In this document: piece by piece, positions 4,319 through 62,303 of the stretch
How positions within the stretch are numbered: position 1 is the first letter of the stretch
Layout of the letters: each line of letters begins with the position of its first letter
Assembly: GCF_003385955.1 (NCBI RefSeq)
Contig: NZ_QRDW01000004.1
Location: forward strand, 62,001-126,000
Direction: 5' to 3'
Length of the DNA stretch: 64,000 nt
DNA from: Aestuariispira insulae
GTDB lineage: Bacteria > Pseudomonadota > Alphaproteobacteria > UBA8366 > Aestuariispiraceae
The notes under the pieces: model-generated
Databases searched by the model: none
What the model was told of the DNA's origin: nothing
What the model saw: the letters and a program-made list of their open reading frames with translations, nothing else
Made by a program: the position numbers and the translations under genes

Positions 4319-4987
4319 ATGAGTCAGATCGCAGAAAACCAATCCCTTCTTGATCAGTTCGGTGATCCATTCACACGCGTGGAACTGGCCCTTGAAGCCC
4401 TGCGTGCGGGCCGGGGTGTTTTGGTTGTGGATGACGAAGACCGGGAAAATGAAGGCGATATCATTTTTGCCGCAGATAGCCTGACCGAGGCGCAAATGGC
4501 TGTGCTTATCCGGGAATGCAGTGGCATTGTCTGTCTTTGCCTGACAGATGAAACCGCCAGCCGTTTGCAACTTCCGCCAATGGTGGAACATAACGACAGC
4601 TCCATGGGGACTGCTTTCACTGTCACCATTGAGGCCAAAAAGGGGGTGACGACCGGTGTTTCAGCTGCAGATCGGGTCACCACCGTAAAAACCGCGATCG
4701 CTGCTGATTGCCGTCCGGATGACCTGGCAAGGCCGGGCCATGTGTTTCCGTTGCGGGCACAGGCCGGCGGTGTTTTGACACGGCGCGGGCATACCGAAGC
4801 CACCATTGATTTGGTGGCCATGGCCGGGCGTACACCAGCAGGTGTCTTGTGTGAGTTAACCAACCCAGATGGCACCATGGCCCGCCTGCCGGAGATCGTT
4901 CAGTTCGGGAAAACCCATGAAATGCCCGTCGTTTCGATCGAAGATCTGGTTTCATTTCGCCTCAGCCAACAGAAAATGGCCGTGTGA
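4319..4987 (+). CDS. ribB: 3,4-dihydroxy-2-butanone 4-phosphate synthase
   Basis: Makes the four-carbon riboflavin precursor from ribulose 5-phosphate, with formate released. 222 residues, a stand-alone RibB length with no GTP cyclohydrolase II domain. Catalytic motifs are [13 protein letters not shown] near residue 35, the GVSAADR block, and [20 protein letters not shown]. The ATG at 4319 is chosen because GGAG at 4306-4309 sits 9 bases upstream. An upstream in-frame start at 4247 would extend into riboswitch-proximal leader. It is monocistronic, between the FMN riboswitch and a strong hairpin, so feedback by FMN is the likely control. Confidence 0.96.
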
Positions 4988-8624: not shown

Positions 8625-9077
8625 GGTTTTTCCGGTCTATTTAAAGTTACTGGCTGGACAGGCTTATAAGGATTTTTGCGTAAGAGGTCACGAGTAAAGC
8701 GCATCGGGGAGTTTCCATTTGTTTTAGGGTCGAGGTAATAAAATGTCCTGTATTGGTGGAATTAAGAAATTATTCCTGACCAAATAGTCAGATTCATCTT
8801 GACCATATGATCAACATAGGTCAGACTTTCCTCATAAGTAGAAAATTCGCCCTTCATGCCAAATGGACAACAGGCATGATTCACAAGCAAGAGGCGAGAC
8901 GAACGGGATCGAGGCGCAAGACAGAGGGCAAAAGCTCCGGATCGCACCTCCATAAGTGAAAATTCTCAGGCACCCGCATTGGTTGGTGTCGTCGGGATCG
9001 CTTTTCCCAAATTTCGTCTGGTCTCCACGCTGGGGGCATATCAGGATCTGGCTAAAGACGGCCTTTGGGAGACGACA
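8625..9077. other. Divergent intergenic region, long preT leader
   Basis: 453 bases between the YhiN-type gene and preT. It holds two palindromic operator-like sites at 8776-8814, then about 260 bases of leader before preT. Short open frames here have no convincing ribosome site. A TTG at 8979 is in frame with preT but lies far upstream of its conserved start. The 11-mer TGATTCACAAG at 8877-8887 recurs at 13121-13131 in the leader of the second pyrimidine unit. Confidence 0.6.
8776..8814. promoter_or_regulatory. Two RutR-like operator palindromes
   Basis: CTGACCAAATAGTCAG (8776-8791) and TTGACCATATGATCAA (8799-8814) are both palindromic, with centres 23 bp apart. They match the RutR consensus as I recall it, TTGACCAnnTGGTCAA, at 11 and 13 of 14 positions. 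RutR is a TetR-family regulator that responds to uracil and thymine. The position upstream of pyrimidine-degradation genes fits that role. No TetR gene lies in the window. Confidence 0.7.
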
Positions 9078-10415
9078 ATGACGACCAAGCGCATGGGATT
9101 GAGCGGCAAACCGGAAACGGCGGCGGAAATGGCCGCCCGCTTTGATGATTTGCATCCGCCCTATAATGAAATGATGGCGATGACCGAGAGTAATCGCTGC
9201 CTTTATTGCTATGATGCACCTTGCACCACTGCCTGCCCAACCAGCATTGATATTCCGGCATTCATCCGGAAGATTTCGACCGGCAACCCCAACGGCGCGG
9301 CAAAGACGATTCTGGAAGAAAACATCCTCGGTGGTACCTGCGCACGTGTCTGTCCAACGGAAACCCTGTGCGAACAGGCCTGCGTCTGCAATGAGTTGGA
9401 GGGCGGGCCGGTCCCGATTGGCCGGTTGCAGCGTTACGCGGTTGATCATTTCATGGAGGCGGACAAGCCGCACCCGTTTGGCCGGAAACCCTCGAGCGGC
9501 AAAACGGTTGCGGTTGTCGGGGCCGGGCCTGCGGGCCTGGCCTGCGCGCATCGCCTGGCGATGTTAGGCCATGATGCGGTTGTTTTTGAGGCTAAGGCGA
9601 AGGCGGGGGGGCTGAATGAATATGGTCTTGCCGCCTATAAAATGACCAATGATTTTGCCCAGAAGGAAGTGGATTTCTTATTGGAGATTGGTGGTATCAC
9701 CATCCAGTACGAACAACGCCTTGGCGACAATCTGCTGCTTGCCGATCTGAGCCGGGATTATGATGCTGTCTTTATCGGTATTGGTCTTGGCGATGTGAAT
9801 GATTTGGGGCTGGAAGGCGAAGACAAGGACGGCATTCACAGCGCGATCGACTTCATTGAAGAAATTCGTCAGGCACCGGACAAGCGCGATGTCGCGGTCG
9901 GTGACAATGTGATCGTGATTGGTGGCGGTAATACGGCCATTGATGCCGCGGTTCAGGCAAAACGGCTGGGGGCCGGTGAGGTCACCCTGGTCTACCGTCG
10001 CGGAGCCGAACAGATGGGGGCAACGGATTTTGAACAGGACCTGGCCAAACTGAATGATGTCATCGTGCGCTATTGGTCCATGCCATCCGGCATCAAGGGC
10101 AATGGCAAGGTTGAGAGCATGGTCTTTGAAAAGGCCGAGCTGGATGGTGGTAAACTGATGGGCACAGGAGAGACCTATGAGGTCAAAGCCGACATGGTTT
10201 TGAAAGCTGTTGGCCAGAAACTATTGCCTTCCGGATTGGATGGTATTGAGCTCAATCGGGGTAAACTGGTGCTTGATGAAAAATTCCAAACCACGATGGG
10301 CGGGGTATTTGCTGGTGGTGATGCGGTTGCCTCGGGCGAAGATCTAACGGTTCAGGCGGTTGAGGACGGCAAGCAGGCCGCCCATGCGATCGACCAATAT
10401 CTGTCCGGTATGTGA
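9078..10415 (+). CDS. preT: NAD-dependent dihydropyrimidine dehydrogenase, PreT subunit
   Basis: Electron-input subunit of the enzyme that reduces uracil and thymine to dihydropyrimidines. 445 residues. The N-terminal iron-sulfur region has CLYCYDAPCTTACPTS and CARVCPTETLCEQACVC. An FAD site VAVVGAGPAGLACA follows, then an NAD(P) site VIVIGGGNTAIDAA, and a C-terminal GGVFAGGDAV flavin motif, as in the glutamate synthase small subunit family. I start at ATG 9078, preceded by GGGAG. It is followed 19 bases later by preA, giving the classic PreTA pair, and is probably controlled by the RutR-like sites upstream. Confidence 0.94.
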   Translation: MTTKRMGLSGKPETAAEMAARFDDLHPPYNEMMAMTESNRCLYCYDAPCTTACPTSIDIPAFIRKISTGNPNGAAKTILEENILGGTCARVCPTETLCEQACVCNELEGGPVPIGRLQRYAVDHFMEADKPHPFGRKPSSGKTVAVVGAGPAGLACAHRLAMLGHDAVVFEAKAKAGGLNEYGLAAYKMTNDFAQKEVDFLLEIGGITIQYEQRLGDNLLLADLSRDYDAVFIGIGLGDVNDLGLEGEDKDGIHSAIDFIEEIRQAPDKRDVAVGDNVIVIGGGNTAIDAAVQAKRLGAGEVTLVYRRGAEQMGATDFEQDLAKLNDVIVRYWSMPSGIKGNGKVESMVFEKAELDGGKLMGTGETYEVKADMVLKAVGQKLLPSGLDGIELNRGKLVLDEKFQTTMGGVFAGGDAVASGEDLTVQAVEDGKQAAHAIDQYLSGM

Positions 10416-10434
10416 GAGAAGGGGATTAGAGACT

Positions 10435-11712
10435 ATGGCTGATTTGAAATGCACCATCGCCGGTATTGAGAGCATCAACCCCTTCTGGCTGGCCTCTGCA
10501 CCGCCCACGGACAAGAAATACAATGTTGTCCGTGCGTTTGAAGCTGGTTGGGGCGGTGTTGTCTGGAAGACCCTTGGGATTGATCCGCCGGTGATCAATG
10601 TTTCCAGTCGCTACGGCGTGCATCATGACCATAAGCGCCGGGTCATGGGGATCAATAATATCGAGCTGATCACCGACAGGCCGCTGGAGGTGAACCTTCA
10701 GGAAATCCGGGAAGTGCGCGAGGAATGGCCGGATCGGGTGATCATCGGTTCCATCATGGCGCCGGTCGAAAAACACTATTGGCAGGATCTGGCCCGTCAG
10801 GTGGCGGATGCTGGTGTTCATGGGCTGGAATTGAACCTTGGCTGTCCGCACGGCATGTGTGAACGCGGCATGGGATCCGCCATCGGGCAGGTGCCGGAAA
10901 TGGTGGAACAGGTGACCCGATGGGTGAAAGAGGCTGTCGACATTCCCGTCTTCACCAAACTGACTCCCAATATCACCAATATTCTCTGGTCTGCGGAAGC
11001 AGCTTATAAAGGCGGCGCGGATGCGGTCTCGCTGATCAACACAGTCAATTCCATCATCTCGGTCGATCTGGATCAGATGGCTCCGACACCGACTGTGGAT
11101 GGTGTCGGCACCCATGGCGGCTATTGCGGATCGGCGGTCAAGCCGATCGCGCTGAACATGGTGGCCGAGATCGCCAAGAGCCCGGATACCGGCAATATGC
11201 ATATCTCCGGCATCGGCGGTATCACCGACTGGAAAGACGCGGTTGAATTCATGACCCTGGGGTCGAATGCGGTCCAAGTCTGCACTGCGGCCATGGTTTA
11301 TGGCTTCCGCATTGTTGAAGACCTGATCGACGGCATGTCCGACTGGATGGATGAAAAGGGTTATACATCCGTCGCCGAATTCACCGGGGCTGCCGTTCCG
11401 CAGGTCAAGGACTGGAACGAGCTGAATATGAACTATGACATCAAAGCGGTGATCGACCCGGATCAGTGCATTGAATGCGGGCGCTGCCATATTGCCTGTG
11501 AAGACACTTCCCATCAGGCGATCTTGATGAAAACCAGGGAAGACGGCGGCAAGCTGTTTGAGGTGGTGGATGATGAATGTGTGGGCTGTAACCTCTGCCT
11601 GCATGTCTGCCCGGTGGAAGGTTGTATCAGCATGAAAGAAGTGAGTGCGGGCAAACCGGCTCTCACCTGGCCGGAACATCCGCTTAATCCGATGAAACAG
11701 GCGGCAGAATAG
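10435..11712 (+). CDS. preA: NAD-dependent dihydropyrimidine dehydrogenase, PreA subunit
   Basis: Catalytic FMN subunit that reduces uracil/thymine with electrons from PreT. 425 residues. The dihydroorotate-dehydrogenase-like barrel carries ELNLGCPHGMCERGMG, holding the active-site Cys. The C-terminus has a two-cluster ferredoxin module, CIECGRCHIACE and CVGCNLCLHVCPVEGC. The ATG at 10435 has AAGGGG upstream and is preferred to an in-frame start inside preT. It follows preT and is 14 bases before the carbamoylase gene. A 4Fe-4S PreA paired with PreT is the bacterial split version of mammalian dihydropyrimidine dehydrogenase. Confidence 0.95.
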   Translation: MADLKCTIAGIESINPFWLASAPPTDKKYNVVRAFEAGWGGVVWKTLGIDPPVINVSSRYGVHHDHKRRVMGINNIELITDRPLEVNLQEIREVREEWPDRVIIGSIMAPVEKHYWQDLARQVADAGVHGLELNLGCPHGMCERGMGSAIGQVPEMVEQVTRWVKEAVDIPVFTKLTPNITNILWSAEAAYKGGADAVSLINTVNSIISVDLDQMAPTPTVDGVGTHGGYCGSAVKPIALNMVAEIAKSPDTGNMHISGIGGITDWKDAVEFMTLGSNAVQVCTAAMVYGFRIVEDLIDGMSDWMDEKGYTSVAEFTGAAVPQVKDWNELNMNYDIKAVIDPDQCIECGRCHIACEDTSHQAILMKTREDGGKLFEVVDDECVGCNLCLHVCPVEGCISMKEVSAGKPALTWPEHPLNPMKQAAE

Positions 11713-11726
11713 GGAAGGGCAAAATC

Positions 11727-13007
11727 ATGACCGTACAAGCAAAGTCAAGGAACCTGCGCATCAATGGACAGCGCCTTTGGGACAGCCTGATGGAAATGGC
11801 CAAGATCGGGGCGACGGAAAAAGGCGGTGTCTGCCGCCTGGCCCTGACTGATGTAGATAAGGAGGGCCGCGATCTTTTCGTTAAATGGTGCGAGGATGCA
11901 GGATGCACCATCCGTACTGACAAGATGGGGAATATCTTTGCCCGGCGTGCCGGCCGCAATAATGACCTGCCGCCGATCCTAACCGGCAGCCATCTGGATA
12001 GCCAGCCGACCGGCGGCCGCTTTGACGGGGTCTATGGCGTGCTGGCCGGTCTGGAGGTGGTGCGCGCGTTGAATGATGCGGGCTATGAAACGGAAGCCCC
12101 GGTGGAGGTGGCCGTTTGGACCAATGAAGAAGGCTCGCGCTTCCCGCCAGCCATGGTTTCTTCGGGCGTTTTTGCTAAGGTGTTTGACCTGGAATATGGT
12201 CTCAGCCGGGCTGATGTCGATGGCAAGACCATGGGGGAAGAGATCAAGCGCATCGGCTATGACGGCCCCGATGAGCCGACCATTGACGGTCATCCGGTCG
12301 GTGCCTATTTCGAAGCTCATATCGAGCAGGGACCGATACTCGAGGATGAGGAAAAGACCATTGGCGTTGTGACTGATGCCCAGGGCCAGCGCTGGTATGA
12401 AATTACCTTAACAGGGGTGGAGGCCCATGCCGGGCCGACCCCGATGAATTTGCGCAAAGATGCATTGTTGGGGGCGGCCCGGATTGTCGATGCGGTCAAT
12501 CGAATCGGCATGGCGAACCAGCCCTATGCCTGTGCGACAGTCGGGATGATGCAGGTTCATCCCAATTCCAGGAATGTGATCCCGGGCCAAGTTTTCCTGA
12601 CCGTTGATTTCCGCCATCCCGATGATGAGATCCTGGCTAAAATGGATGGGCAATTGCGTGAAGCGGTCGAGGATATCCGTGACGAAATCGGGCTGGAGAT
12701 GGATTTTGAACAGATCTGGTATTATGCACCGATTAAATTTGAAGCATCCTGTGTCCAGGCTGTCCGCGACGGGGTGGAGATCATGGGCTACAGCAACCGG
12801 GACATGGTTTCCGGCGCAGGCCATGATGCCTGTTATCTCTCCAAAGTCACGCCGACAGGCATGATCTTCATCCCCTGTGTCGACGGGATCAGCCACAACG
12901 AGATCGAGGATGCGACACCCGAATGGGTAGAAGCCGGCGGCCAGGTGCTGCTGCAGGCGATGATCGCCAAGGCAGATGAAACAATACTCAATATTTCAAA
13001 AGGATAG
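11727..13007 (+). CDS. Zn-dependent N-carbamoyl amidohydrolase (hydantoinase/carbamoylase family)
   Basis: 426 residues, M20-type zinc carbamoylase. Metal ligands sit in GSHLDSQPTGGRFDG (His89, Asp100), WTNEEGSRF (about 131-139), EAHIEQGP, GVEAHAGPTPMN and GAGHDACYL. In this context it most likely cleaves N-carbamoyl-beta-alanine and N-carbamoyl-beta-aminoisobutyrate to the beta-amino acid, CO2 and ammonia. AllC-type ureido hydrolysis is an alternative from the same family. It is the third gene of the preTA unit and is followed by an intrinsic terminator. A second, unrelated ureidopropionase candidate lies 390 bases downstream. Confidence 0.92.
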   Translation: MTVQAKSRNLRINGQRLWDSLMEMAKIGATEKGGVCRLALTDVDKEGRDLFVKWCEDAGCTIRTDKMGNIFARRAGRNNDLPPILTGSHLDSQPTGGRFDGVYGVLAGLEVVRALNDAGYETEAPVEVAVWTNEEGSRFPPAMVSSGVFAKVFDLEYGLSRADVDGKTMGEEIKRIGYDGPDEPTIDGHPVGAYFEAHIEQGPILEDEEKTIGVVTDAQGQRWYEITLTGVEAHAGPTPMNLRKDALLGAARIVDAVNRIGMANQPYACATVGMMQVHPNSRNVIPGQVFLTVDFRHPDDEILAKMDGQLREAVEDIRDEIGLEMDFEQIWYYAPIKFEASCVQAVRDGVEIMGYSNRDMVSGAGHDACYLSKVTPTGMIFIPCVDGISHNEIEDATPEWVEAGGQVLLQAMIAKADETILNISKG

Positions 13008-13021
13008 AGGCAACCCCGACT

Positions 13022-13055
13022 GGGACCTGCGGGACTATCCCGCGGTCCCGTTTTT
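13022..13055 (+). terminator. Intrinsic terminator of preTA-carbamoylase unit
   Basis: GGGACC and GCGGGA (13022-13034) pair with TCCCGC and GGTCCC (13038-13049). The stem has one bulged T and a 3-base loop, followed by TTTTT after G13050. Confidence 0.9.
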
Positions 13056-13091
13056 CCCGGTTTGAGGGAATGGAGATCGGTTGTAATATTG

Positions 13092-13107
13092 TTGACCGTT
13101 TGGTCAG
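13092..13107. promoter_or_regulatory. RutR-like operator palindrome
   Basis: TTGACCGTTTGGTCAG matches 12 of 14 defined positions of the remembered RutR consensus TTGACCAnnTGGTCAA. It lies between the preTA-unit terminator and the second pyrimidine unit, 308 bases before the nitrilase-type gene. Together with the pair at 8776-8814 it suggests both units answer to one uracil-sensing TetR-family repressor. Confidence 0.7.
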
Positions 13108-13399: not shown

Positions 13400-14263
13400 A
13401 TGACGATGTTGCGCGGCGGTCTGATACAAATGGGGTTGAAAGGGGATACGGCGGACAGTCCGGAAAAAATCCGCGATGCGATGCTGGAGGCTCATTTGCC
13501 GCTGGTTGAAGAGGCTGGCCGCAAAGGCGTCCAAGTGCTCTGTTTCCAGGAAGTCTTCACCCAGCCTTATTTCTGCCCCAGCCAGGACAGCAAATGGTAT
13601 GCGGCTGCGGAACAAATTCCCGACGGTGTTACGACCCAGATCATGTGCGAGATGGCTAAGAAACATAACATGGTCATTGTGGTGCCGATCTATGAGGAAG
13701 ACATCACCGGGGTCTATTACAACACAGCTGCCGTGATTGACGCGGATGGCCGATATCTTGGTAAATACCGCAAAACCCATATCCCGCAGGTTGCCGGTTT
13801 CTGGGAGAAATTCTTCTTTAAGCCCGGTGCATCAGATTGGCCGGTCTTCGAGACCGCCTATTGCAAATTGGGTGTCTATATCTGTTACGACCGCCATTTT
13901 CCGGAAGGCTGGCGAGCGCTGGCGCTGAACGGGGCGGAATATATCGTCAATCCGTCAGCCACTGTCGCTGGCGTTTCCGAATATCTCTGGAAGCTGGAAC
14001 AACCGGCGTCGGCGGCGGCCAATGGGGTCTATATCGGCGCGATCAACCGGGTTGGGCGCGAACAGCCCTGGGACATTGGTGAGTTTTACGGCCAGAGCTA
14101 TTTCGTCAACCCGCGCGGCCAGATTGAAGCGATCGCAAGTCGCGACAAGGATGAGCTGATCGTCCATGACATGGATATGGACATGATCAAGGAAGTTCGT
14201 AACAGCTGGCAGTTTTTCAGGGATCGGAGGCCGGATACTTACGGGCCGCTGACCGGACTGTGA
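13400..14263 (+). CDS. Nitrilase-superfamily beta-ureidopropionase candidate
   Basis: 287-residue carbon-nitrogen hydrolase. The Glu-Lys-Cys triad is visible as Glu51 (CFQEVF), Lys125 (KYRKTHIP) and Cys162 (ICYDRHFPEG). The surrounding sequence, including HIPQVAGFWEKFFFKPG, resembles the eukaryotic beta-ureidopropionase (UPB1) branch rather than aliphatic nitrilases. Expected reaction: N-carbamoyl-beta-alanine to beta-alanine, CO2 and ammonia. N-carbamoylputrescine amidase is the main alternative. Start ATG 13400 follows GGGGAG. It opens the unit with the NCS1 permease and dihydropyrimidinase, duplicating the function expected of the zinc carbamoylase. Confidence 0.9.
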   Translation: MTMLRGGLIQMGLKGDTADSPEKIRDAMLEAHLPLVEEAGRKGVQVLCFQEVFTQPYFCPSQDSKWYAAAEQIPDGVTTQIMCEMAKKHNMVIVVPIYEEDITGVYYNTAAVIDADGRYLGKYRKTHIPQVAGFWEKFFFKPGASDWPVFETAYCKLGVYICYDRHFPEGWRALALNGAEYIVNPSATVAGVSEYLWKLEQPASAAANGVYIGAINRVGREQPWDIGEFYGQSYFVNPRGQIEAIASRDKDELIVHDMDMDMIKEVRNSWQFFRDRRPDTYGPLTGL

Positions 14264-14475
14264 CAAATTTGAGAATCGTATAACAGTTTCAATCGTTTCT
14301 GGCCGGTTGCTCTAACAAGAAAACATATGCGGGGAGCAGCATCCGGCCCGCCCCGATACACCGGCGGGGTGACAAAGAGGGGACCGGTGCGGCAAGGCGG
14401 GACATGTTCGGGAAGAGACCTGACAACAGGCAAGTCCGGGGAAAACAGGTCCGCGCATATCTGGGAGATAGACAC

Positions 14476-15987
14476 GTGACTGATAATGCTTCGGTAGCAG
14501 GACAAGGGACTGTTACAGATGAATATGGGGTGACGCATTCACAAATAGCGGGTGCAGATCCGGATTTATTTAACGAAGACCTTGCGCCCGCGTCGGCCGA
14601 GGCTCGTACTTGGGACTGGAAAGCAATTGCCGCCTTATGGGTTGGTATGGTGGTTTGCGTTCCAACATATTTCATTGCCGCCAGTCTGGTGGCTGACGGA
14701 ATGTCCTGGTGGCAGGCGGTAATCACTGTGTTGCTCGGCAACGTGATTGTAGCCGTTCCCATGATGTTAATCGGCCACGCAGGTACGAAACACGGGATTC
14801 CATTCCCGGTTCTGCTTAGGTCATCCTTTGGTACAGTCGGTGCAAAGATTCCAGGTGTTGCCCGTGGTCTGGTGGCATGCGGCTGGTTCGGAATCCAAAC
14901 CTGGGTAGGCGGCTCAGCCATTTATGTAATCTTAAATGCCGTATCTGGTAATGCTTTTGCTGGTGAACCGCTTCCATTTCTCGGTATTGATGCAGCACAA
15001 ACCTTGAGTTTTCTTGCGTTTTGGGCGTTGCATCTCTGGTTCATTCGGCATGGTACGGAATCGATCCGCTGGCTGGAAACCTACGCGGCACCGTTCCTTC
15101 TGCTTATGGGGCTGGCGCTGTTGGCCTGGGCCTATGTGAAGGCGGGTGGTTTCGGTGAAATGTTGTCTGCACCGAGTGCGTTTGGCCCCGGTGGGGAGAA
15201 GGAAGGCCAATTCTGGAGCGCTTTCATTCCGGGTTTGACTGCAATGGTCGGGTTTTGGGCTACACTGGCTTTGAACATTCCGGATTTCACCCGTTATGCC
15301 AAAAGCCAGAAGGATCAGATCCTCGGCCAGGCAGTCGGCCTGCCGATCCCGATGGCGCTCTTTGCATTCATCGGCGTAGCAGTAACCTCCGCAACCGTGG
15401 TGATCTATGGTGAGGCGATCTGGGATCCGGTTAAGCTTGCGGAGCGCATGGAAGGCTTTGGTATAGTGGTTGCCCTGTTTGCGTTGGTTGTGGCCACTCT
15501 GACTACAAATCTGGCAGCCAATGTTGTGGCTCCATCCCATGGTTTTTCCAATCTCAGCCCTAAGAAGATTTCCTTCAAGATGGGGGGGTATATCACAGCA
15601 GCGATCGGTATTGCGATTTTCCCTTGGAAACTGATCGAAAGCACCCAGGGTTATATCTTTACTTGGCTAATCGGATATTCAGCTTTGCTGGGACCGATCG
15701 CAGGCATCCTGATCGTGGACTATTTCCTGATCCGCAAAACCGAACTGAAAGTGGACGATCTGTTTCGGCATGATGGGATTTATGGCGGTAGAAATGGCTG
15801 GAACATGGCGGGTATCACCGCGCTTATCATTGGTATCCTGCCCAACCTGCCGGGTTTCCTGAATGCGGCCGGTTTTGTTGAAAGCGTACCATCGTTCTTC
15901 ACCGGAATTTATGATTTTGCCTGGTTTGTAGGGCTTCTCATCGCCGGGATTGTCTATTTCGCCATGATGAGCGGTAAACGGAGCTGA
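14476..15987 (+). CDS. NCS1-family nucleobase permease
   Basis: 503-residue integral membrane protein with about 12 hydrophobic segments. The N-terminal DWKAIAALWVGMVVCVPTYF and later WFGIQTWVGG are typical of nucleobase:cation symporter-1 proteins (uracil, cytosine, allantoin, hydantoin). The GTG at 14476 is preferred because GGGAG lies about 8 bases upstream; an ATG at 14404 would add 24 residues with no family match. It sits between the ureidopropionase and dihydropyrimidinase genes, so uracil, thymine or a dihydropyrimidine/hydantoin is the likely substrate (inference). The 211 bases before it contain no gene I can support. Confidence 0.93.
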   Translation: MTDNASVAGQGTVTDEYGVTHSQIAGADPDLFNEDLAPASAEARTWDWKAIAALWVGMVVCVPTYFIAASLVADGMSWWQAVITVLLGNVIVAVPMMLIGHAGTKHGIPFPVLLRSSFGTVGAKIPGVARGLVACGWFGIQTWVGGSAIYVILNAVSGNAFAGEPLPFLGIDAAQTLSFLAFWALHLWFIRHGTESIRWLETYAAPFLLLMGLALLAWAYVKAGGFGEMLSAPSAFGPGGEKEGQFWSAFIPGLTAMVGFWATLALNIPDFTRYAKSQKDQILGQAVGLPIPMALFAFIGVAVTSATVVIYGEAIWDPVKLAERMEGFGIVVALFALVVATLTTNLAANVVAPSHGFSNLSPKKISFKMGGYITAAIGIAIFPWKLIESTQGYIFTWLIGYSALLGPIAGILIVDYFLIRKTELKVDDLFRHDGIYGGRNGWNMAGITALIIGILPNLPGFLNAAGFVESVPSFFTGIYDFAWFVGLLIAGIVYFAMMSGKRS

Positions 15988-16047: not shown

Positions 16048-17541
<1,494 letters not shown>

Positions 17542-17658: not shown

Positions 17659-18561
17659 ATGCCGATATTCACGCAATCCGCCCGCTGTTTCATCGCCGTC
17701 ACCCAGGCCGGTTCCATCCGCAAGGCGGCAGGGCTGCTCAACACATCGCCCTCTTCGGTCAACCGGCAGATCAAGCAGTTGGAATATGAGATGAAGGTCG
17801 AACTATTCGACCGGAAACCGGATGGCATGCAAATGACCGCTGCCGGCGAGATCCTGCTGGCGGACCTGCAGGAGGCTATGCTGGGCCATAACCGGGCCCG
17901 CAATGCCATATCCGCGCTCAAAGGTATGCAGGGCGGCCATGTGATTTTGGGCGTGGTGGAATGTCTCGCGGCGGATTTTGCCCCTGATTTGCTGGCCGAT
18001 CTGGCCACAGCCTTTCCAGGACTGTCCTTTGATTTGCGCATTGGCCGGACAGCGGAACTGTCCGACAGGCTGGCCAAGGGCGAGCTGGATGTGATTTTGG
18101 CCTTCAACGTGCCGACATTTGCGGAAATCATCACCGAACATATCAGCCATTGGCCGGTGGGTCTGGTCTCTCACCAGAAAACGGGAGAGGGGGATATTGC
18201 TCTTGAAGAGGTTTCAAATTTGCCTCTGGTCCAGCTGGAGCAAAGCTTCGGGGTGCAGGCTTCCCTGACGGAAATGATGAACCGCAAAGGGTTCCAGCCA
18301 CGCCTAATTGGCCAATGCAATTCCATTGCAGCGGTGAAAGGTCTGGTTCGGCGTGGGCGGGGGGCGGCCATCCTGACCCGATTGGATGTTTATCGTGAAT
18401 TAACATTGAAAGAGCTTCATTTCCGGGCAATTGACGCCGAGATGCCGCTGACCGAGCCGCTGTCCCTGTGCGTTGCCCGGAACAGGAAATTATTGTTTGA
18501 TCGAGATGCCGTGCTGGCACGGATTATAGGCCGTCTGGAAGCGCTGATGATGAATGAATAA
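17659..18561 (+). CDS. LysR-family transcriptional regulator
   Basis: 300 residues. The N-terminal winged helix reads FIAVTQAGSIRKAAGLLN, TSPSSVNRQIKQLEYEMKV and ELFDRKPDGMQMTAAGE. An effector-binding periplasmic-protein-like domain follows from about residue 90. The start at 17659 has no obvious ribosome site, which is common for LysR genes. It lies 110 bases upstream of, and in the same direction as, the 8-oxoguanine deaminase gene and just beyond the pyrimidine terminator. It may control the deaminase or an unseen gene. The effector is unknown. Confidence 0.93.
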   Translation: MPIFTQSARCFIAVTQAGSIRKAAGLLNTSPSSVNRQIKQLEYEMKVELFDRKPDGMQMTAAGEILLADLQEAMLGHNRARNAISALKGMQGGHVILGVVECLAADFAPDLLADLATAFPGLSFDLRIGRTAELSDRLAKGELDVILAFNVPTFAEIITEHISHWPVGLVSHQKTGEGDIALEEVSNLPLVQLEQSFGVQASLTEMMNRKGFQPRLIGQCNSIAAVKGLVRRGRGAAILTRLDVYRELTLKELHFRAIDAEMPLTEPLSLCVARNRKLLFDRDAVLARIIGRLEALMMNE

Positions 18562-18670: not shown

Positions 18671-20026
18671 ATGGCGATTTGGATCAGGAACCCTCTGGCA
18701 ATTCTCGAAGAGGAGGCGCGGGGCGGCTTGCTGCTCATGGGCGACCGGATTGCGGAACTTGTTCCGGCCGGGGCGGAGCCAACTTGCCTGGAGCCGAATG
18801 AAGCGCTGGAGGTGTTTGATGCCAGCCAGCATGTGGTGCTGCCGGGTTTGATCAACACCCATCATCATTTTTATCAGACTTTAACCCGCGCCTGCCCGCC
18901 GGCGCTGGACAAGGAATTGTTTCCCTGGCTCAAGGCGCTCTATCCGATCTGGGCGGGGTTGACACCGGAACGTATGCAGCTTGGCAGCCGGCTTGCGATG
19001 GCGGAGCTGTTGCTTTCCGGCTGTACCACAACAGCGGATCACCATTATCTTTTTCCCAAAGGCATGGAAGAAGCAATTGATATTCAGGTTTCTGAAGCAT
19101 CTCAGCTGGGCCTGCGCGTGTTACTGACACGCGGCTCTATGAGCTTGGGCGAAGAGGATGGCGGTTTGCCGCCGCAAAGCACGGTCCAGCGCGATGAGAC
19201 AATCCTCTTTGATAGTGAACGCCTAATTTCCCGCTATCACGAGCCGGGGGAAGGGGCGATGGTTCAGATTGCTCTGGCCCCTTGTTCGCCTTTTTCCGTC
19301 ACCACTGAACTGATGCGGCAAACAGCGCGGTTGGCTAGGCGTCATGGCGTGCGCCTGCATACCCATCTGGCGGAAACCGAGGATGAGAACGAATTTTGCC
19401 TGAAAACCTTCGGCATGCGACCGCTGGACTATCTGGAGCATGTGGGCTGGATGGCAGATGATGTCTGGCTGGCCCATGGTATTCATTTCAATGATGAGGA
19501 GATTGCAAGGCTTGGGAAAGCGCGCGTCGGCATCACCCACTGCCCGTCATCCAATATGGTGCTGGCATCCGGCATCTGCCGTAACCTGGAGCTGGAGGCC
19601 GCAGGTGCCATTGTTGGGCTGGGGGTTGATGGTTCTGCATCCAATGATGGTTCCAATTTGATCCAGGAAGTACGTCAGGCCCTCATGATCCAGCGTTTGC
19701 GCTATGGCTCCGGCCGTGTCAGTCACAAGGATGCTTTCCGTTGGGCAACAGCCGGATCTGCGGATTGTTTGGGGCGAAGGGATCTGGGCCGTCTTGAGGT
19801 TGGTTGTCAGGCGGATCTCGCTATGTTCAAGCTTGATGAGCTGCGTTTCTCCGGCAATGGCGATCCGCTTGCTGCGCTGCCGCTTTGCGGGGCCGACAGG
19901 GCGGACCGTGTCATGGTGCAGGGGCGCTGGCGGGTGATTGACGGATGCATTCCAGGTCTTGATTTGGAAGAGCTGTTACACAGTCATCAACAGGCTGCGG
20001 ATGAGCTGCAAGCACCATTCTTGTAG
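18671..20026 (+). CDS. 8-oxoguanine deaminase (amidohydrolase)
   Basis: 451-residue amidohydrolase of the cytosine-deaminase-like group, expected to deaminate 8-oxoguanine to urate. Metal and substrate motifs are NTHHHFYQTLTRACP, HTHLAETEDEN, DVWLAHGIHF, HCPSSNMVLASGI and GVDGSASNDGSN. The spacing and the phrase FGMRPLDYLEHVGWM match the family defined around Pseudomonas Pa0142. Isocytosine or other oxidised bases are possible substrates. It follows a LysR gene and the pyrimidine-degradation cluster, consistent with scavenging of damaged nucleobases. No xanthine or urate catabolic gene is adjacent. Confidence 0.9.
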   Translation: MAIWIRNPLAILEEEARGGLLLMGDRIAELVPAGAEPTCLEPNEALEVFDASQHVVLPGLINTHHHFYQTLTRACPPALDKELFPWLKALYPIWAGLTPERMQLGSRLAMAELLLSGCTTTADHHYLFPKGMEEAIDIQVSEASQLGLRVLLTRGSMSLGEEDGGLPPQSTVQRDETILFDSERLISRYHEPGEGAMVQIALAPCSPFSVTTELMRQTARLARRHGVRLHTHLAETEDENEFCLKTFGMRPLDYLEHVGWMADDVWLAHGIHFNDEEIARLGKARVGITHCPSSNMVLASGICRNLELEAAGAIVGLGVDGSASNDGSNLIQEVRQALMIQRLRYGSGRVSHKDAFRWATAGSADCLGRRDLGRLEVGCQADLAMFKLDELRFSGNGDPLAALPLCGADRADRVMVQGRWRVIDGCIPGLDLEELLHSHQQAADELQAPFL

Positions 20027-33880: not shown

Positions 33881-34765
33881 ATGGAGCGGGCGGAAGATCT
33901 CGGGCTTGAACATATCTGGAGCGGTAATGACCTTTTAGGCGAGGGGCCGCTCTGGGACCACCGTGCCGGTGTCTTATACTGGGTCGATATCGAGAAATCC
34001 CTGATCCACCGGTTTGATCCGGTCAGCGGCGACGTCGATAGCCTGGAGACGCCTTCTATGGTTGGGTCGGTCGCGCTGTTGGGGGAATACCGCCTGCTGG
34101 CTGCTATCGGTCGTGGTTTCTATTCTGTTGAATTTGCAAAAGGCACGTGCGAACTGCTGCCTGATGGTGAGGTTGAGGCTGTCGGCTGTCTGATGAATGA
34201 CGGCAAGGTGGATCGCCATGGGCGTTTCCTGGCCGGTGCCAAGGATCTGTCGGAAGACAGTCCTGTCGCATCGGTCTGGCGGTATGATGGCCAGGCAATC
34301 AAGCCGGTGATGGAGGGATTCACAGTCTTTAACGGTCCGGCTTTCTCGCCGGATGGAAAGACTATCTATTTCACCGATTCCCCGGGCCAGGTGATTTTCC
34401 GTGCGGATTACGATCCACAGTCCGGCTGCATTTCGGCGCGGGAGGAATTTGCCCGGCTGGGAGAGGGGGATGGTTATCCCGATGGCATGACCGTCGATGC
34501 CGAAGGCTGTCTTTGGAATGCCCATTGGGATGGCTGGCGGATTACGCGGTATCGGCCGGATGGTGCAATTGACCGGGTGATCAGTATGCCAGTCAAGCGC
34601 GCGACCTCGCTCTGTTTTGGTGGCGTGGATCTCAAAACGCTTTTTGTGACTTCTGCCTGCACACGGTTCACTGAGGACGAGCTTGCGGAAAACCCTGCAG
34701 CGGGAACGCTGTTTGCTCTGAAACCCGGCGTTGTTGGCCTACCTGAAGCGACAGTGAAAGAATAG
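33881..34765 (+). CDS. SMP-30/gluconolactonase-family lactonase
   Basis: 294 residues forming a six-bladed beta-propeller of the SMP-30/LRE family: LLGEGPLWDHRAGVLYWVDI holds the metal-binding Glu, FNGPAFSPDGKTIYFTDS the Asn/Asp region, and GYPDGMTVDAEGCLWNAHWDG a second Asp. Hydrolyses a sugar lactone to the free sugar acid. I take ATG 33881, six bases after GGGGA, over the GTG at 33878. It sits between the ATPase gene and the sugar dehydrogenase gene, so it probably opens the lactone that the dehydrogenase makes. Confidence 0.92.
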   Translation: MERAEDLGLEHIWSGNDLLGEGPLWDHRAGVLYWVDIEKSLIHRFDPVSGDVDSLETPSMVGSVALLGEYRLLAAIGRGFYSVEFAKGTCELLPDGEVEAVGCLMNDGKVDRHGRFLAGAKDLSEDSPVASVWRYDGQAIKPVMEGFTVFNGPAFSPDGKTIYFTDSPGQVIFRADYDPQSGCISAREEFARLGEGDGYPDGMTVDAEGCLWNAHWDGWRITRYRPDGAIDRVISMPVKRATSLCFGGVDLKTLFVTSACTRFTEDELAENPAAGTLFALKPGVVGLPEATVKE

Positions 34766-60770: not shown

Positions 60771-62303
60771 ATGGTAAGACGCAAATCTGGGCGGCGCAGT
60801 GCCGAGCGGGAAGCGGGAATGGGATTTAACCAGCTTCCTTTCGGGCAGGTATATTCGCCCTATTCCCCGTTCGAAATTCTCTCCGCGGATCAGTTGGAGG
60901 CGATCCATCAGGCTTCATTGCTGGTGTTGCGGGATACGGGCATGACCTTCTTGCTGCCTGAGGCGCGGGAGCTATTAAAGGCGGCCGGGGCCGATGTCCA
61001 GCCTGGCAGTGATCGTGTCCGGTTTGAGCCTGCCTTGATTGAGGCGTTGATCAAGACCGCGCCATCGCGTTTTACCATGCATTCCAGGAACCCCGCGTTC
61101 AATTGCGAGATGGGCGGCAACATCATCACTTATGGAATGGTGGCAAGCCCGCCCAACGCGACAGATATCGACCGTGGACGGCGCACGGGAAACTTTGAGG
61201 ACTTTTGTAATTTCATGCGCTTGGCGCAATTAATTAATGTCGCACATCATGTTACGGGTTATCCGGTTGAGCCAATTGATATTCCGGTGCCGGTCCGTCA
61301 TCTTAAGGCCTATCAGGCTGGTGTGAAACTGTGTGAAAAGGTCAGTTTCGGTTATTCCCATAGCCGGGAACGCATCCTGGATGTGATTGAAATGACGCGG
61401 ATTGTGCGCGGGATTTCCGAAGAACAGATGACACGGGAACCAAGCCTCTTCACCGTGGTTAACGCCAACTCTCCTCTGCAATATGACCGGGCAATGCTGG
61501 AAGGCATTATCGAGATGGCCAAGAGGAACCAGCCGGTCATTGTCACGCCTTTTACCCTGTCGGGTGCCATGGCGCCGGTCACGATTGCCGGAGCCTTGGT
61601 CCAGCAGAATGCAGAAGCGCTGGCGGGCATTGCCATGACTCAGGTGGTCAATCCAGGCGCGCCTGTCCTTTATGGGGGGTTCACTTCGAATGTGGATATG
61701 AAGACCGGATCACCGGCCTTTGGCACGCCGGAATATGCCAAGGCGGTGCTGGTAGGCGGTCAGTTGGCACGGAAATATGGTGTTCCTTACCGGACATCCA
61801 ACGTGAATGCCTCCAATGCTCCCGATGTCCAGTCGGCTTATGAAAGCATGAATTCCCTTTGGTCGACCATGCTGGCCCATGGCAACTATATCAATCATGG
61901 CCTGGGTTGGCTGGAAGGGGGGTTAAGCGCTTCTTTTGAGAAAGTGATCATCGATGCCGAGATGATCCAAAATATGATCGCCTTCATGGAACCGCTGGAA
62001 GTGACTGAGGACAGCCTGGCCGTTGATGCGATCAACGAGGTGGGGCCGGGTGGGCATTTCTTTGGCACGGCCCATACACTGGCGCGCTATGAAACCGCTT
62101 TTTATGCACCGATGCTATCTGACTGGAACAATTATGAAAACTGGTCAGAATTGGGCGGACTGACTGCAACCGAACGGGCAAACCGGATCTACAAGAAACT
62201 ATTGGTGGATTATGAGCGTCCGCTGATGGATCCGGCCATTGAAGAAGAGTTGGATGCCTATGTTGACCGCCGAGTCGCCGAAGGCGGCGCGCCGCTGACG
62301 TAA
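60771..62303 (+). CDS. MttB-family methyltransferase, non-pyrrolysine
   Basis: 510-residue TIM-barrel protein of the trimethylamine methyltransferase (MttB) superfamily, with NAPTNATDI-like segments (VASPPNATDIDRGRRTG), GYSHSRERILDVIEM and TLSGAMAPVTIAGAL. The frame is uninterrupted, so no UAG-encoded pyrrolysine is used. Non-Pyl members demethylate glycine betaine, proline betaine or carnitine with a corrinoid partner in anaerobes. No corrinoid protein lies in view here. ATG 60771 follows AGGGAG. A DMGDH-like gene begins 25 bases downstream, pointing to N-methylated amine catabolism. Confidence 0.88.
   Translation: MVRRKSGRRSAEREAGMGFNQLPFGQVYSPYSPFEILSADQLEAIHQASLLVLRDTGMTFLLPEARELLKAAGADVQPGSDRVRFEPALIEALIKTAPSRFTMHSRNPAFNCEMGGNIITYGMVASPPNATDIDRGRRTGNFEDFCNFMRLAQLINVAHHVTGYPVEPIDIPVPVRHLKAYQAGVKLCEKVSFGYSHSRERILDVIEMTRIVRGISEEQMTREPSLFTVVNANSPLQYDRAMLEGIIEMAKRNQPVIVTPFTLSGAMAPVTIAGALVQQNAEALAGIAMTQVVNPGAPVLYGGFTSNVDMKTGSPAFGTPEYAKAVLVGGQLARKYGVPYRTSNVNASNAPDVQSAYESMNSLWSTMLAHGNYINHGLGWLEGGLSASFEKVIIDAEMIQNMIAFMEPLEVTEDSLAVDAINEVGPGGHFFGTAHTLARYETAFYAPMLSDWNNYENWSELGGLTATERANRIYKKLLVDYERPLMDPAIEEELDAYVDRRVAEGGAPLT

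Follow-up and report, generated by a model that had tools for sequence, protein, structure and literature searches.

A predicted RutR/PydR-type regulon for reductive pyrimidine breakdown in Aestuariispira insulae

The locus

Within a 64,000-nucleotide stretch of the Aestuariispira insulae contig NZ_QRDW01000004.1 (forward-strand positions 62,001 to 126,000; the window), two gene units for the reductive breakdown of pyrimidines lie side by side, preTA-hyuC and nitrilase-NCS1-dihydropyrimidinase. Upstream of them are three palindromes, two at the first unit and one at the second, and it is the likely role of these palindromes that concerns us here. A first-pass annotation of the window had read them as RutR-like operators on the strength of 11, 13 and 12 matches to a 14-position RutR consensus, and both places and counts were verified against TTGACCANNTGGTCAA. 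The features are given below in window coordinates; YTGACCRNNYGGTCAR is a fuller form of the pattern, and scores are from a 16-position matrix trained only on sites beside rutR, preTA or nitrilase genes of other genomes.

8776..8791, unstranded: predicted operator 1 of the preTA unit, CTGACCAAATAGTCAG; three mismatches to TTGACCANNTGGTCAA (11/14), one to YTGACCRNNYGGTCAR; score 16.8, third in the window
8799..8814, unstranded: predicted operator 2 of the preTA unit, TTGACCATATGATCAA; one mismatch to TTGACCANNTGGTCAA (13/14), one to YTGACCRNNYGGTCAR; score 19.8, second in the window
9078..10415, + strand: preT, pyridine-nucleotide-side subunit of dihydropyrimidine dehydrogenase; ATG at 9078 chosen from sequence and relatives, the listed open reading frame running from 8979
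10435..11712, + strand: preA, catalytic subunit of dihydropyrimidine dehydrogenase; NF006183 (PreA) 671.5 bits, cut-off 335
11727..13007, + strand: hydantoinase/carbamoylase-family Zn amidohydrolase, candidate beta-ureidopropionase; TIGR01879 430.3 bits (cut-off 204), NF006769 681.5 bits (cut-off 452)
13092..13107, unstranded: predicted operator of the nitrilase-NCS1-dihydropyrimidinase unit, TTGACCGTTTGGTCAG; two mismatches to TTGACCANNTGGTCAA (12/14), exact to YTGACCRNNYGGTCAR; score 23.4, first in the window
13400..14263, + strand: nitrilase-family amidohydrolase (CN_hydrolase, PF00795), candidate N-carbamoyl-beta-alanine amidase; ATG at 13400 from sequence
14404..15987, + strand: NCS1-family nucleobase transporter; TIGR00800 388.7 bits, cut-off 353
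16081..17541, + strand: dihydropyrimidinase; TIGR02033 602.2 bits, cut-off 393

The two palindromes of the preTA unit are spaced 23 bp start to start. The start of preT is probably 9078. As each unit encodes one amidohydrolase, the last step of the pathway, hydrolysis of N-carbamoyl-beta-alanine, has two candidate enzymes; the nitrilase-family protein scored 235.8 bits with TIGR03381, under the cut-off of 410.

The three palindromes take the top three matrix scores of the window and occur only upstream of the two pyrimidine units, as the first-pass annotation had stated; the fourth-best score (13.3, at 34569) falls within a coding frame. In 60 simulations under a third-order Markov model of the same sequence, 0.18 sites scoring at least 16 are expected per 64 kb, compared to the three observed. 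With the shorter consensus TTGACCANNTGGTCAA, 10 places in the window have at most three mismatches, a number reached by none of 100 shuffles (mean 3.09).

A RutR/PydR-type regulator outside the window

The first-pass annotation had proposed a search for a RutR-like TetR regulator, and one such gene was found. A single protein of the genome has the PF08362 domain (YcdC/RutR C-terminal region, 163 bits), along with PF00440 (TetR_N, 56.4 bits), both above cut-off; its gene is at C4:128113-128751, 2.1 kb beyond the end of the window. As it is encoded there, the regulator would act in trans, as had been predicted. The earlier statement that the window contains no regulator gene thus stands for the RutR type, but it overlooked a LysR gene, considered below. 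The regulator gene is ~53 kb from the palindrome at 13092 and ~58 kb from that at 8776, and is divergent from an MmgE/PrpD-family gene. Even so detached, it retains a predicted operator of its own, the palindrome TTGACCAAACGGTCAG (L021 8787-8802), which is of the TTGACC-N4-GGTCAA type and precedes the start by 35 bp.

The best NCBIfam match of the regulator is TIGR03613 (RutR) and its best Protein Data Bank (PDB) match is E. coli RutR (3loc, E 8.8e-41), to which it is 33% identical. Its scores are below the RutR equivalog cut-offs (TIGR03613, 175.3 against 368 bits; NF011584, 162.2 against 230 bits). It is therefore a RutR relative better named RutR/PydR-type than RutR in the narrow sense, PydR being the RutR-like repressor of the reductive pathway's dihydropyrimidine dehydrogenase in Pseudomonas putida (Hidese et al. 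2012, as cited in PMC7332683). In E. coli RutR, according to PMC10891134, W77, Y97, W167, Q171 and Q179' contact uracil by stacking or bonding and K52 and K62 touch DNA. The A. insulae regulator and all 11 proteins of the alignment have these same seven residues.

Taken with the recurrence in relatives described below, the sequence evidence makes it very likely that the three palindromes are operators of this single RutR/PydR-type TetR repressor. RutR apo-dimers bind palindromes and are released by uracil, again according to PMC10891134. By analogy, when pyrimidines are scarce a dimer of the A. insulae regulator would sit on the 16-bp palindromes, two at preTA-hyuC and one at nitrilase-NCS1-dihydropyrimidinase, as well as on its own promoter, and block transcription. 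Rising uracil (or thymine) would enter a pocket formed by W78, Y98, W168, Q172 and Q180', and the conservation of this pocket suggests that the dimer would then leave the DNA, so that uracil could be taken up and broken down reductively to beta-alanine. The end products of the reductive route are beta-alanine, ammonia and CO2.

Specificity of the motif in the genome

A genome scan for the motif, likewise proposed in the first-pass annotation, gave a divided answer. The loose pattern TTGACCNNNNGGTCAA with up to two mismatches was common, at 453 places versus 412 for the reversed control, which is near background and uninformative. The fuller YTGACCRNNYGGTCAR had four exact places in 4.82 Mb versus one for the control. 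Specificity thus emerges only with the fuller pattern, given that the loose one hardly exceeds its control. The four exact places are 13092 in the window, the promoter of the regulator, that of a nucleoside transporter and the start of a chemoreceptor gene.

Within one mismatch, YTGACCRNNYGGTCAR was found at 43 places (control 25), 12 of which are intergenic by a greedy open-reading-frame call, compared to none of the 25 control places; this call puts the chemoreceptor site inside a frame owing to an early GTG. Eight of the 12 intergenic places precede pyrimidine-linked genes: preT (twice), the nitrilase gene, the regulator gene, the nucleoside-transporter gene, pyrE, carB and argD-argF, the last connected to pyrimidines through carbamoyl phosphate.

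Recurrence in related genomes

Clear orthologues of the regulator, defined as best matches of at least 120 bits, were found in 10 of 58 related genomes (G numbers). The rutR gene lies among genes for PreT, PreA, carbamoylase, nitrilase or dihydropyrimidinase in all nine relatives judged; the tenth (G026, L085) was left out of this count, its 4-kb contig ending at the gene start. The PreT-type neighbours are 50-71% identical to the window PreT, and the G005 PreT orthologue has the Pfam domain Fer4_20. A site is close upstream of the matched rutR start in eight of the nine, in L081 within the frame if its longest form is taken; the one relative with no site close upstream of rutR is G049, the most diverged (35% identity). 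Exact sites also precede preTA in G001 and G005, and in G043 a site lies between the nitrilase and dihydropyrimidinase genes. In the judged relatives the regulator gene is in or beside the pathway cluster, whereas in A. insulae it is detached from its predicted targets. The two catabolic units, adjacent in A. insulae with operator-like sites at each, are apart or in another order in relatives.

The exact pattern is also more enriched where the regulator is encoded, with 29 places versus 8 for the control in the 10 rutR-bearing relatives and 26 versus 19 in 34 relatives without rutR (34 of 48, the other 14 being set aside as smaller or less complete).

A second set comprised 80 rutR loci from named taxa, and neighbouring genes were assessed in the 68 that span 14 kb or more. 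Among these, PreA was encoded in 60, dihydropyrimidinase in 60 and either in 63; the five with neither nearby are all from Vreelandella. In 43 of the 80 loci, the 350 bp preceding rutR contain a site that scores at least 15. In the four Robiginitomaculum loci among the rest, a site is found between rutR and preT. All 16 Burkholderiales loci (L288, L292, L293, L295, L298, L300-L303, L306, L307, L312, L313, L316, L322 and L323) have exactly one CTGTCCRRTTGGACAG palindrome ~215-365 bp ahead of rutR. This operator-like variant has one base swapped per half site and keeps the spacing. The seven Pseudomonas loci encode proteins of 49-50% identity, which we infer to be PydR, and in the six longer loci of the seven PreT, PreA and dihydropyrimidinase are encoded close by.

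As rutR, the site and reductive-pathway genes recur together in relatives, the regulator is tied to the sites by conservation, beyond motif resemblance. Together with the regulator gene and its own-promoter site, this recurrence supports the earlier prediction of RutR-type control of the PreTA/hydantoinase route.

Several side observations were made in these genomes. Three relatives have tandem pairs of RutR-type genes (~55-59% plus 39% identity to the A. insulae protein), at L078 9741-11058, L079 13158-14382 and L085 3-1293. In G005, an exact site (L145 5198-5213) is 66 bp before a 2-oxoglutarate-Fe(II) oxygenase gene, ahead of which are genes for a branched-chain-type ATP-binding cassette (ABC) transporter, read by eye. 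In G001, a gene carrying AlaDh/PNT domains, probably for a transhydrogenase alpha subunit, has an exact site (L142 5041-5056) ~260 bp ahead of it.

Evidence against the assignment and other explanations

A number of observations weigh against operators of a RutR/PydR-type repressor. Of the RutR consensus, only the ~16-bp size and palindromic form were confirmed in print, the E. coli rutA-rutR intergenic region offers one weak match with three mismatches (TGGACTAAACGGTCAA), and the regulator misses the RutR equivalog cut-offs. In the window, the palindromes at 8776 and 8799 are imperfect, with one mismatch each to YTGACCRNNYGGTCAR, the predicted operators are ~260-300 bp ahead of the chosen start codons, and no sigma-70-type match turned up near them on the + strand in a simple scan for promoters. 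In the genome, loose matching is near background, YTGACCRNNYGGTCAR was composed after inspection of this genome's own sites, and four of the 12 intergenic places (C1:753473, C1:1048467, C8:81117 and C8:187419) have no recognised pyrimidine neighbour. Among the named loci, 37 of the 80 are without this form of the site upstream: the 16 from Burkholderiales, 15 from Pseudomonas, Vreelandella and gammaproteobacterial metagenome-assembled genomes (MAGs), four from Robiginitomaculum, L264 (a cut contig) and L271 (an alphaproteobacterial MAG). Nor are the 80 independent, as ~17 are from Thalassospira, L287 and L289 are identical, and L263 and L264 apparently duplicate the contigs of G032 and G026. 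Finally, G051 lacks rutR and has two exact sites (C1:480489-480533) beside another TetR gene.

Of the other explanations, control of the pathway mainly by the LysR regulator, with incidental palindromes, appears very unlikely. The LysR gene does follow the dihydropyrimidinase gene on the same strand:

17659-18561, + strand: LysR-type regulator, directly after the dihydropyrimidinase gene
18671-20026, after the LysR gene: 8-oxoguanine deaminase; NF006055 680.8 bits, cut-off 532

However, we judge the deaminase gene that comes next to be the likelier LysR target. The regulator that recurs in the clusters of the nine relatives is of the RutR type, LysR matches there having only ~28-30% identity (L077, L082), and the palindromes track RutR orthologues across genomes. 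It seems very unlikely that the sites belong instead to some other TetR-family protein of A. insulae that recognises a similar sequence. Ten further proteins of the genome are weak TetR-type matches to the RutR-type protein, and as the TetR protein beside the G051 sites is only 23% identical, the motif alone does not identify the protein that binds it and may be common to several TetR regulators. Nevertheless, the RutR-type gene has a site at its own promoter, and the association repeats with its orthologues. Chance palindromes, which the near-background loose matching might have suggested, are hardly credible given the excess of high-scoring sites in the window and of intergenic places in the genome.

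Further candidate targets of the RutR/PydR-type regulator

The RutR/PydR-type repressor may have targets beyond the two catabolic units. The exact site at C4:169454 (L022 9454-9469), TTGACCAAATGGTCAA, is between a Bmp ABC operon and a major facilitator superfamily gene. The operon is of the PnrA-like/Bmp nucleoside type, with PDB relatives Lbp (7x0r) and TmpC (2fqw), and includes a purine-nucleoside phosphorylase gene. G001, the nearest rutR-bearing relative, retains the site (TTGTCCATTTGGTCAA, score 20.0), and the sequence around it is poorly conserved. Among eight orthologous transporter loci (57-85% identity), only that of G001 has an upstream site; none was found in the rutR-bearing G006 and G023, and G026 offered only 103 bp. 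In G005 an exact site is within the Bmp operon, not upstream of it.

The carB site, CTGACCAAACAGTCAG on the gene's strand (C8:4507; L070 4507-4522), scores 16.2 and is likewise kept in G001 (CTGACCAATCAGTCAA, score 19.9). No carB site scoring at least 15 was found in the other 15 of 16 relatives searched, two of whose loci had less than 200 bp of upstream DNA, or in any of the 23 named genomes that have rutR and gave a match to carB (24 searched; best score 11.7). Near this site, a ~33-base block, CACTTGCTGTACATCTGCGCCGCCTAAGGACCC, is identical in A. insulae and G001 with differing flanks. It is found on the minus strand of L070 (~4405-4450), past the RutR-type site and before carB begins, and at L185 ~1376-1410; its core was not found in the other carB loci examined. 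Rfam matched the carB leader only to snoRNA (sR) families, below gathering scores; the block is possibly a leader peptide or RNA element.

The remaining sites are weaker leads than those of the nucleoside transporter and carB. The pyrE gene (NF001729, 341.6 bits, cut-off 245) has a one-mismatch site 77 bp upstream (L069 4766-4781, score 18.5). At the equivalent position the match in G001 is decayed (11.1), and the other 15 of 16 relatives score at most 7.8; as the surrounding G001 stretch is conserved in general, conservation of this site proves little. The pyrE match in G005 was rejected as an orthologue (33% identity). Upstream of argD-argF, both genes being confirmed, a one-mismatch site (C8:143185; L071 4686-4701; score 17.9) is intergenic and more than 300 bp from the likely start. 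The exact chemoreceptor site (C3:246861; L023 9861-9876) precedes the possible ATG starts, assigned by eye, by 11 or 29 bp. For the N-terminal part of this methyl-accepting chemotaxis protein, 15 of 16 relatives gave no match and the other a weak one (E 3.2e-4). A chance origin is plausible here, since the reversed control also has one exact place in the genome; the site may be due to chance or mark a uracil-induced receptor.

Relation to known systems

Like PydR (cited in PMC7332683), the A. insulae regulator is a RutR-like TetR protein paired with the dihydropyrimidine dehydrogenase of the reductive pathway. RutR-type control of this pathway, which the first-pass annotation presented as unusual, is therefore already known in kind, and the new detail here is modest. 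The newer points are the 53-58 kb between the regulator gene and the operators and the nucleoside-transporter and carB sites kept in G001. The Pseudomonas loci differ in that the regulator gene is near the pathway genes and that all seven score below 1 upstream of it; elsewhere in the locus, L318 has a score of 17.7 and L319 of 15.9. A literature search found no report linking RutR to preTA or to a chemoreceptor, and for PydR together with RutR only the paper that cites PydR; subscription papers were mostly outside its scope, so absence in print is not implied.

With E. coli K-12 RutR the regulator shares the TetR fold family, PF08362, the contact residues, a ~16-bp palindromic operator and a site at its own promoter. 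The targets differ: in E. coli they are the oxidative rutA-G operon and carAB, whose promoter RutR binds as well (PMC10891134), whereas the predicted A. insulae targets form the reductive pathway. The computed RutR regulogs of RegPrecise cover 68 genomes in 13 proteobacterial groups, with taxon-specific substitutions in the motif, according to PMC5343134. The motif here similarly differs by taxon, between Alphaproteobacteria and Burkholderiales.

What began as a guess from a motif now has a specific regulator gene and a set of predicted operators behind it. Loci that pair a RutR-type uracil sensor with the reductive pathway are found across Thalassospira, Kiloniella, Rhodobacteraceae, Burkholderiales and Pseudomonas. 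More tentatively, and less likely than not, the sensor in the A. insulae lineage might be a wide pyrimidine regulator, covering breakdown, Bmp nucleoside import and carB, and perhaps pyrE, argD-argF and the chemoreceptor. The nucleoside-transporter and carB targets bear on whether the link between RutR and carbamoyl phosphate in E. coli is a local oddity. If the wider role is true, one sensor would join the uptake, breakdown and synthesis of pyrimidines, and A. insulae and E. coli would each have gained or retained the carbamoyl-phosphate link, in combination with different catabolic routes.

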